Position numbers and translations under genes: made by a program
DNA from: Thermoprotei archaeon
GTDB lineage: Archaea > Thermoproteota > Nitrososphaeria > Geothermarchaeales > JDFR-13
Direction: 5' to 3'
DNA length: 32,794 nucleotides
Assembly: GCA_011043415.1 (NCBI GenBank)
Contig: DQXH01000123.1
Location: 1 to 32,794 of the forward strand
The notes under the pieces: generated by a model
The model's database searches: none
Told to the model about the DNA's origin: nothing
What the model saw: the letters and a program-made list of their open reading frames with translations, nothing else
Shown here: positions 13,157-17,171 of the stretch, piece after piece
How positions within the stretch are numbered: position 1 is the stretch's first letter
How the letters are laid out: the number at the start of each line of letters is the position of its first letter

Positions 13157-14575
13157 CTACTCCCACTCCTCCCTAATATATTCCTGGGTCTCCGCAACAA
13201 GCCTCATAGCATAATCTAAATACTCGATATGCCTCTCCAAATCCTCCTCCGTATGCTGTACACTGATAGTCCACATCTCCTCAGGACCTGTAGCCATAGG
13301 AATTATACCGTTATTCAGCATTCCAAAGTAGTAGGGGTACCATAGATCCATGTTAGTATCTAGTATCTCTCTAAAGTTCTTCACCTTATGCTTACTAAAT
13401 ATTATCGCTCCACTTACACCATATGTCTCGACATAGGCCTCTATATCATACTGTTTAAACATCTCTTCATACGCATTTTTAAGCATGCTATTGAATTTGA
13501 TGAGAGGTTTATACGCCTCCCTCGTTAGAATTTCCTTCAACGTGACATATAGTGATCTTAATGAAAATGGATTAGCGTTATATGTACCCGCATGTACAAC
13601 TCCCCTCTCCCTCATTGATTCTGAGGGACCTATTAAACTCATAATCTCTTCTTTACCGCCTATTATACTTATAGGTGCGCCTCCACCAACTGCCTTGGCA
13701 AGCGTAATAATATCGGGATCGACGCGATATTCCTGTGCAGCTGTTCTCGGCCCATTCCTCATACCTGTCTTAATTTCATCAAATATTAATACAATGTCAT
13801 ACTCCTTAGTAAGCTTCCTAATTCTTTTTAAATAGTTATTCATAGGCTTGATGATGCCTGCATTCATCATTACAGGCTCTATTATTAAGGCAGCTACATC
13901 ATCACCCTCCTCATCTAGTATATCCTCGAGAGTCTCCGTATCATTATATGGGACTATTCTAACTAGATCTTCTACTACATCCGGTACACCCATACTCTCT
14001 AAGACACTTACAGGCATTTTACGTGGCCCGGCTAATCCCCTGTATGGCCAGGTACTGATCAGGACATGGTCGTAAGTCCCATGATACGTACCCTCAACCT
14101 TTATGATGACATCTCTACCCGTGTATGCTCTGGCTAATCTAATTGCAAACATAATAGCCTCACTACCACTATTACTGATCCTAAACATATCGATATCAAA
14201 CAGATCTACTACTAACTCCGATAACTCACATAGTAATTCATGGGGATACGTGTATAATATCCCCTTCTCAACCTGCTTCTTCAACTCTTTAACAAGTATG
14301 GGATGAGCGTGACCGACTATCAATGCACCATAACCCATGTTAAAATCTAGGTACTCATTATCATCGACGTCCCATATCCTACTCCCCTTAGCATTTTTAA
14401 AGTATAGTGGATACGGTGGATAATATCTCTGGTTACTATTTACACCATATGGAATATAGTCACTAACCTTCTCAAATATCTCTCTAGACCCACTCGTTCT
14501 ACTTAGATACTTCTTCACCTCATCAATAACTTTAGGACCCAAATCCTCATAATCCGCTAAATAAGCTTCATACAT
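13157..14575 (-). CDS. Class III aminotransferase, glutamate-1-semialdehyde aminomutase (HemL)-like
   Basis: SGSEAIMFAIRLARAYTGRDVIIKVEGTYHGTYD, LIFDEIKTGMR, PLP lysine in DIITLAKAVGGGAPISIIGG. Confidence 0.85.
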   Translation of the reverse strand: MYEAYLADYEDLGPKVIDEVKKYLSRTSGSREIFEKVSDYIPYGVNSNQRYYPPYPLYFKNAKGSRIWDVDDNEYLDFNMGYGALIVGHAHPILVKELKKQVEKGILYTYPHELLCELSELVVDLFDIDMFRISNSGSEAIMFAIRLARAYTGRDVIIKVEGTYHGTYDHVLISTWPYRGLAGPRKMPVSVLESMGVPDVVEDLVRIVPYNDTETLEDILDEEGDDVAALIIEPVMMNAGIIKPMNNYLKRIRKLTKEYDIVLIFDEIKTGMRNGPRTAAQEYRVDPDIITLAKAVGGGAPISIIGGKEEIMSLIGPSESMRERGVVHAGTYNANPFSLRSLYVTLKEILTREAYKPLIKFNSMLKNAYEEMFKQYDIEAYVETYGVSGAIIFSKHKVKNFREILDTNMDLWYPYYFGMLNNGIIPMATGPEEMWTISVQHTEEDLERHIEYLDYAMRLVAETQEYIREEWE

Positions 14576-14862: not shown

Positions 14863-15995
14863 ATGATTGAAATGTTCTATATTGGAATAATAAAGTTACT
14901 TCTTCTGAAAGTTTTAGACTATCTCCCTACAGCATTAGAACTATCAACCATTGGAATATACTTCCATGCAATAAGTATAGCAATTGTAATAGGAGGGGAA
15001 TTAAGTATAGTTGCCTAGAGTTTATTGAAGATATTAGGAATAACCCCGACTACATTATAATAGCTAAGAAAGTTGCTAAAGTAGTGGTTGTAGCATTTGT
15101 CTTCAGAACAGTCTCGGGAATAAATGTAGAATTTGGATTAGTACAGGTATGGAATGGGGGTATTGCTAGCGATTAGAAGCTAAGTTCTAATACCGCTATA
15201 TCTAGAACTTATAGCATTTATACTAGAAGGCGGCTTTCTACTTGCAGTGTTATATGCATGGAATAGGATGAAGCTTTCAATATATCCACTTATAGGATTC
15301 CTAATGGTTTTATGCGGCTTCATGGTACCAGATGGATTTTAGGTACATATTCGCTATAATCGATAAGCCAGTTGGGATACTTAATCTAACGCCTCTAGAG
15401 ACAGATCCCGTGGCAGCCTTATCAAATCCAGTGCATCTACCCCTAGTACTACATACATGGATAGGTGCAGTATCAATAGGTTTCATGGCAACAGCTACAG
15501 GTTTATTATATGCATCTGAATATGATCAGAAGCTATTGGAGTGCTATTGGCGATCCCACAGGAATTGATAGGTTATTGGTTCTGGCTAGTACTTGAGAGA
15601 GAGTTGAAGTATCTATTCAACAGTATATCGCGTCGATACTCGGTATATGTGATGTTCAAAATGACGTGTCATAGCCATTTATACTAATGATAATCGTCGC
15701 GATATACCTATACAGAAGTAATATTCTAGTATAGGAGAAGCGTTATTTTTAGGATATTCATTAGCCCCGTCATCGATCCTCGGCTTATTGGCAGAGGAAA
15801 TTTGCACATGATTATGGAAGAATATCATATATGATTATGGCAGGGATAGAGGAATCGGGGTAGAATTATTCGTAAAATAGGCTGATGATCGTAGGTATAC
15901 AGGATATATTAGCAGGATTAGTACCTATATTAGCATATTACATACGTTTATATGTTTCTCTACTCTATCTAGTTAAGGGCTTTTTATCCGAATAA
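14863..15995 (+). pseudogene. Decayed cytochrome bd oxidase subunit I (CydA-like) pseudogene
   Basis: Fragments in shifting frames concatenate to a CydA-like membrane protein: IYFHAISIAIVIGG / AKVVVVAFVFRTVSGINVEFGLVQVWNGG / LIPLYLELIAFILEGGFLLAVLYAWNRM / RYIFAIIDKPVG..ETDPVAALSNPVHLPLVLHTWIGAVSIGFMATATG / VLLAIPQELIGYW / GYSLAPSSILGLLAEE / IQDILAGLVPILAYYIRLYV. Stops at 15016, 15174, 15340, 15566, 15685 and 15732 plus several frame changes. Confidence 0.87.
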
Positions 15996-16010: not shown

Positions 16011-17171
16011 TTATAGTGGATACTCCCATTCACTATATTTAATTTCTTTGACGGGGACCCCTCTTCTATTAAGCTCTTTAATCCATAACCCAGGTTCAGT
16101 TATAAGCTCTGGTGGAATAACTCCCTTTCTAGGTACATATCCCTCTGCCAATAGCTGTAAACCTATACTAGCTCCATATCCCGTAGATACTGCGGTGACC
16201 CCTGCCTTCCAGTCATCTCGATATCTGAATGGACCTACAAAGTATATTCTACGTACATATACACCTCCCTCATATCCCTTTAACTCCACCCTTAATGCAC
16301 CAACCTCATTTCTAGATTCTTCAGGCTTTATCAAAGTAGCTAATACCTTCTGAGGCGATACCTTACATCCCATCACTTCTATAACATCCTTCCTTACAAG
16401 ACCGGACTTCCTTAAAAATTCTACAACGGGAAATAGACTCTCATCCCATGTATCTTTATATGTAACCGTCTTCACATCCGGGATAGTATATGGCAGGGTC
16501 GCCAACTCACTATGTATAATTGCATATGTCTTCTTATATCCAATTGGATCAGGAAAGTACGTAAGTTCGGGGTAACTTAATGGAGGGGCCTCGACAAACC
16601 TACCATTTATATATAGTATTGCGGGCATGGATACTTCATCAAGTATTGTTGAGATACTAAATCCAAATAAAGATTGCTCCTCCCCCGTAACGGATGTACT
16701 CCCCCATCTAATATGAATCTCCTCAACCTTATCCATCTTCTTAGCTCCATACCCGGCTAATACGTTGGAGGTCCCTGGATCATCCCCAACACCGACTAAT
16801 ACAGTTATCCCAGCCTCCTTAACCTTCTCATCGTACTCAAGCTCCTTTTTAGTCATCCAATATAATCCTCCTAAGTCGGCTAGATCCCTCTTAGCCTTTA
16901 TAGCTGCTTCGATAGCATATAAATTGTATTCATACCATGTCGCATTAACGACTACATCGGCCTTCCTCATGTAATCCGCTATCTCATCTACATCAGTTAT
17001 ATCGCCGCGATATATCTCTAGACGAGGGTCATTCAACTCCTTCGAAAAAATTTCCAGCGACTTAAAGTCGTAGTCAACTGCTATAACCTTCTCAACATCC
17101 TTTACATTTGTCAAAAGATCCCTTACAATAACTTTCCCTACACTGCCTACCCCTAAAACCATATATTTCAT
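16011..17171 (-). CDS. Saccharopine dehydrogenase-like NAD(P)-binding oxidoreductase
   Basis: N-terminal KYMVLGVGSVGKVIVRDLL, DVVVNATWYEYNLYAIEAAIKAKRDLADLGG, GVGDDPGTSNVLAGYGA; typical saccharopine dehydrogenase-like architecture. Confidence 0.85.
   Translation of the reverse strand: MKYMVLGVGSVGKVIVRDLLTNVKDVEKVIAVDYDFKSLEIFSKELNDPRLEIYRGDITDVDEIADYMRKADVVVNATWYEYNLYAIEAAIKAKRDLADLGGLYWMTKKELEYDEKVKEAGITVLVGVGDDPGTSNVLAGYGAKKMDKVEEIHIRWGSTSVTGEEQSLFGFSISTILDEVSMPAILYINGRFVEAPPLSYPELTYFPDPIGYKKTYAIIHSELATLPYTIPDVKTVTYKDTWDESLFPVVEFLRKSGLVRKDVIEVMGCKVSPQKVLATLIKPEESRNEVGALRVELKGYEGGVYVRRIYFVGPFRYRDDWKAGVTAVSTGYGASIGLQLLAEGYVPRKGVIPPELITEPGLWIKELNRRGVPVKEIKYSEWEYPL

Follow-up and report, generated by a model that had tools for sequence, protein, structure and literature searches.

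The CydAA' system reported by Murali, Gennis and Hemp in 2021 (ISME J 15:3534) is said to be a cytochrome bd-type oxygen reductase of Archaea. When tandem paralogues recombine unequally, fusion genes of the haemoglobin Lepore type can result, and lineages that have abandoned oxygen reduction are known to carry respiratory pseudogenes. The locus described here shares features with each of them. It lies in a stretch of 32,794 nucleotides from an uncultured Thermoprotei archaeon (hereafter the window), which is contig 6 of a 1.24 Mb draft genome of 135 contigs, 84.7% complete.

As in archaeal CydAA', the two parts of the decayed gene are each homologous to one of the paralogous subunits, in the same order and with the start of cydA and the stop of cydA', but the genes have merged into a single broken frame, from which most of CydA and the initial third of CydA' are missing. 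As in Lepore-type fusions, the upstream gene contributes the head and the downstream gene the tail, the two meeting in frame at a homologous site with the intervening part deleted; the present case differs in concerning an archaeal membrane oxidase, in having paralogues only about 25% identical and in the decay that came afterwards. Like ordinary respiratory pseudogenes, the locus has a single gene disrupted by frameshifts and stops while the genes around it are intact, and unlike them it has a fusion structure, many frameshifts and little excess substitution. Paralogue fusions and respiratory pseudogenes are both known kinds, and the locus is a case of ordinary gene loss with an unusual fused structure.

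Identity and structure of the decayed gene

The pseudogene extends on the forward strand from an ATG at 14863 to a TAA at 15993-15995, and both triplets were confirmed in the window, as was the occurrence of the gene pieces in correct order over the three forward frames; on all these points the original prediction was borne out. Its assignment to a decayed gene of the cytochrome bd superfamily was also correct, since the fragments, stitched with X, matched the Pfam family Cyt_bd_oxida_I (PF01654) over residues 30-215 with an E value of 3.8e-14 and 52.5 bits (cut-off 26.2), a family-model match that places the product in this superfamily.

The nearest named relatives of the window's genome are Ca. 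Geothermarchaeum rappei (G004) and other Geothermarchaeota. In six of the ten relatives in the family Ca. Geothermarchaeaceae an intact cydA of about 500 codons is directly followed by a cydA' of about 370 codons; the relatives compared belong to genera other than that of the window's genome. When the G004 proteins were searched against the window's own genome, CydA residues 9-133 matched positions 14899-15273 (E=2.4e-17), with an overlapping match at 15006-15167, and beyond the N-terminus CydA gave a single further weak match (E=0.013), which is also produced by the paralogue in G004. Residues 85-369 of CydA', i.e., its C-terminal three quarters, matched 15172-15986, with residues 122-208, 216-247 and 249-369 falling within 15284-15986 at a best E value of 1.4e-18. 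The first 84 residues of CydA' had no match in the own genome, and neither this portion nor CydA after residue 133 or so had a match of its own anywhere in the assembly; when the remaining contigs were searched for traces of the deleted parts, only the paralogue cross-match came up.

The pseudogene was thus divided into a cydA-derived 5' part (14863-15264, forward strand), which begins with the CydA start and closes with the fourth-helix region (YAWN), and a cydA'-derived 3' part (15265-15995, forward strand), which picks up CydA' near residue 116 and continues to its stop codon. Compared with G004, the 5' part (14899-15264) is 56.7% identical to CydA and 21.2% to CydA', while the 3' part (15265-15986) is 49.8% identical to CydA' and 18% to CydA. 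Trees calculated for each part placed the 5' part among CydA and the 3' part among CydA' proteins, each beside Geothermarchaeum sequences (support 0.51 and 0.95, respectively). The 5' part retains the residues aligned to His19, Glu99 and Glu107 of E. coli CydA and reads YFHAIS and LYLELIAFILEGG, in agreement with CydA as aligned to 6rko, so the core residues are of the CydA kind. The fusion lacks about three quarters of cydA, including the C-terminal regions with the GRxPW stretch, and the first third of cydA'. A functional CydAA' needs two complete paralogous subunits, which this locus does not provide.

As read from the sequence, the feature is a pseudogene of the cytochrome bd superfamily with a cydA::cydA' fusion structure and not a near-complete CydA; the original prediction of a nearly full-length CydA gave way before the identities, the trees and the chimera scores reported below, only the first third being CydA and the remainder CydA'. 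Annotation proceeding fragment by fragment would mislabel the pseudogene as CydA.

Chimera scores and fusion junction

The window DNA was compared by frameshift-aware alignment with CydA, CydA' and chimeras of the two from six relatives, using eight shuffles as control. With the G004 references, a chimera of the CydA N-terminus and the CydA' C-terminus scored 787, CydA alone 341, CydA' alone 522 and the reverse chimera 81, and shuffled DNA (n=8) returned scores of 30-41. The chimera exceeded either parent alone with all six relatives. Such a comparison had been proposed with the original prediction, and the similarity it found is to CydA in the 5' part and to CydA' in the 3' part.

The fusion junction was located at 15253-15285 (forward strand), at a YTW(N/G) motif common to both paralogues. 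A junction scan showed one peak, at CydA residue 130 and CydA' residue 115 (score 787), with scores of 766 and 774 ten residues on either side. The frame is open through the junction, within an open stretch at 15184-15339. In the structure 5doq, a solved bd-type quinol oxidase, the YTW motifs of both paralogues align to one YTWDR stretch; the upstream head and the downstream tail are therefore joined at homologous positions, as unequal recombination would require. The junction DNA has about nine bases common to the paralogues.

Lesions

The best alignment carries about eleven frameshifts and three in-frame stops. Six frameshift zones and one in-frame stop are independent of the reference, recurring with all six relatives' chimeras. 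The former lie on the forward strand at 14995-15015 and 15157-15163 in the cydA part and at 15338, 15801-15804, 15843-15849 and 15876 in the cydA' part, and the latter is a TAA at 15181-15183 on the same strand. More frameshifts occur between 15494 and 15760 and after 15930, at positions that vary with the reference. Further in-frame stops on the forward strand, TAG 15672 and TAG 15732, were found in the alignments with the G004 and G007 chimeras. The original prediction had listed six stop triplets (15016, 15174, 15340, 15566, 15685 and 15732), and all are present as described; as lesions, only the one at 15732 holds, being in the homologous frame, and the other five are reached only past a frameshift.

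The open reading frame that a functional CydAA' needs is not found at this locus, and a complete protein of the cytochrome bd family would not be produced from it. Disabled as it is, the copy has counterparts in six genomes of the family in which both cydA and cydA' are without stops, as expected of a pseudogene. A 15-base inverted repeat, 93% complementary with its arms (15623-15637 and 15693-15707) 55 bases apart, was observed in the least alignable part of the pseudogene. Repeats bounding the locus were also searched for, and only short AT-rich ones were found, which we took as chance.

The genes on either side are intact on the reverse strand and align to those of the relatives over nearly their whole length. 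A glutamate-1-semialdehyde aminomutase-like aminotransferase of 472 aa (13157-14575) is 68% identical to its G004 counterpart over 472 aa, and a saccharopine dehydrogenase-like (SDH-like) protein of 386 aa (16011-17171) is 65% identical over 381 aa. These intact neighbours argue that the lesions are probably real rather than general sequencing error.

Age and mode of decay

The flanking intact genes of the window's genome are 59-68% identical to those of G004, and 67-78% identity was obtained between G001 and G004. The CydA part is 57% identical to G004 CydA, a value close to the 62% of the intact G001 CydA, with the limit that the alignment selects the best-fitting frame, so that identity is raised and some decay is possibly hidden. 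Since the 57% identity fits the range of the flanking genes, the CydA part appears to have diverged about as far as a working gene. The divergence of the CydA' part from G004 is no greater than that of the intact G001 CydA'. Differences to G004 by codon position were 0.36/0.23/0.61 in the cydA part, compared with 0.31/0.22/0.62 between working genes. As protein divergence is so close to that of a working gene, the gene seems to have been inactivated recently in comparison with the divergence of the genera, and the damage looks dominated by small indels with little excess substitution.

The archaeon of the window is presumably a thermophile, as its relatives suggest. In cultured Sulfolobus acidocaldarius single-base events made up 84 of 95 indels, and indels outnumbered substitutions; in this species and in Thermus thermophilus most indels are single-base, and base substitutions occur at about one tenth of the frequency seen in mesophiles, with indels reduced far less (PMC2688765). 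The indel-rich decay of the pseudogene agrees with this mutation pattern of cultured thermophiles (PMC2688765). Pseudogenes of this kind could preserve a record of mutation in archaea that resist cultivation.

Genomic locus in the relatives

The tandem cydA-cydA' pair of the relatives sits at sites other than that of the window's pseudogene. Relatives whose intact cydAA' lies elsewhere in the genome have the order aminotransferase, SDH, AOR, extended by IorAB in G004, around the equivalent slot, and the argument that the original prediction had built on the IorAB and AOR neighbours fails on this account. The unfused operon was sought in the relatives' equivalent slot and no cyd genes occurred there, so the intact copy at the same locus in close relatives that the prediction had looked to does not exist among them. 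The contents of the slot between the aminotransferase and SDH-like genes differ by genus: three short unrelated frames in genus g5 (L043:13369-14367 in G004 and L050:5645-6639 in G007), only about 270-330 bases in genus g2 and, in the window, the cyd pseudogene. As the equivalent slot of the relatives is without cyd genes, the operon would have arrived separately in the window's lineage, and within the set of genomes compared its position is peculiar to that lineage. A plasmid search made with a different part of the window was negative.

Origin of the fusion and alternative explanations

We consider it very probable that the locus is a dead cydA::cydA' fusion, formed from a tandem ancestor through a deletion by recombination between the paralogues, which left an in-frame hybrid that then decayed and was inactivated recently. 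The ancestor would have carried the archaeal cydA and cydA' in tandem, an arrangement seen in the relatives and presumed for the window's lineage. The paralogues would have recombined at the common YTW motif, with a deletion removing the last 380 or so cydA codons and the first 115 or so cydA' codons. The product would have been a single hybrid, in frame and about 377 codons long, that began at the cydA start and ended at the cydA' stop; a minimum of six small frameshifts, together with one to three in-frame stops, may then have accumulated in it, an order of events proposed from one sequence. As an outcome, no oxidase would be made from the locus. The fusion structure is read directly from the alignments, while recombination is the cause that we infer for it.

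A different course of events, possible and not favoured, is that the fusion came first as an intact one-gene working oxidase, with the haem core of CydA on a CydA' body, that was kept for a while and later decayed. The in-frame junction at homologous positions, the retained residues aligned to His19, Glu99 and Glu107 and a codon-position pattern that still looks constrained are in line with it; however, constraint acting before the fusion would yield the same codon-position pattern, the C-terminal CydA regions, including GRxPW, are missing and a scan of 400 genomes of the class turned up no intact hybrid, the intact CydA' matches starting at profile positions 1-10. We therefore regard a once-working hybrid as improbable. 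If it did exist, CydAA' would have been naturally reduced to a single gene before the loss of oxygen reduction became complete, and the locus would be a record of this step.

We attach a similarly low probability to the insertion of a displaced or foreign cyd fragment that was already broken, with a working copy in the part of the genome that is not assembled. The variation of the slot by genus, without cyd genes in the relatives, and the 84.7% completeness of the assembly leave room for such an event, whereas both parts of the pseudogene group beside Geothermarchaeum proteins, and G004, assembled in one contig, itself scores only 89% completeness, so that little may be missing here. HemA, HemB and HemC were not found in the assembly either, which also speaks against a working copy.

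Sequencing or assembly errors as the source of the breaks, or an assembly chimera as the source of the fusion, are very unlikely. Some frameshift zones do coincide with runs of four or five identical bases, a known error type, but similar runs in the intact neighbours are free of frameshifts, and every reference also places an in-frame stop in the gene. The paralogues are too unlike for an assembler to join, as only about nine bases are common to them at the junction.

The explanation hardest to credit, and rejected on the scores (341 vs 787) and the identities of the parts, is a plain decayed single CydA gene: the Pfam bd subunit I model covers the stitched product and its first third is CydA, but over the last two thirds identity is 50% with CydA' against 18% with CydA, and the length of the pseudogene fits neither gene end to end.

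Haem genes and the probable loss of oxygen reduction

The search of the rest of the genome, also proposed in the original prediction, was carried out on the own assembly, the 84.7% complete draft, and returned no other CydA or CydA', no intact bd oxidase and no haem-copper oxidase subunit I. All 11 genomes contain a complex I-like NuoH family protein. We consider it likely, for a draft genome, that the lineage lost oxygen reduction via the bd oxidase; the predicted loss of an oxygen-reducing branch is thus probably right, on evidence other than the neighbouring genes from which it had been argued.

The own genome keeps an AhbD-like radical SAM gene, and HemA, HemB and HemC are also absent from three fragmentary genomes that keep cydAA'; both observations weaken the haem evidence for lost respiration. 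Among the other relatives, HemA, HemB and HemC were all found in G001, G004 and G009, are kept by G002, which is without cydAA', and were not found in G003 and G006, both nearly complete and likewise without cydAA'. Contig 7 of the own genome (L061:8634-12518) carries a tandem of three AhbC/AhbD/NirJ-type radical SAM genes, of which the second is 60% identical to a gene in the G004 haem cluster. On contig 1 of G004 (L044:616-4860, from 555616) the intact cydAA' has hemB, hemL, a uroporphyrinogen methyltransferase-like gene and an AhbD-like gene within a few kilobases.

Members of Ca. Geothermarchaeaceae vary in this respect, the oxygen reductase being present in some and absent in others. The locus illustrates one route by which a tandem cydA-cydA' can collapse, and preserves an archaeal oxygen reductase at a stage that appears to follow closely on its loss.
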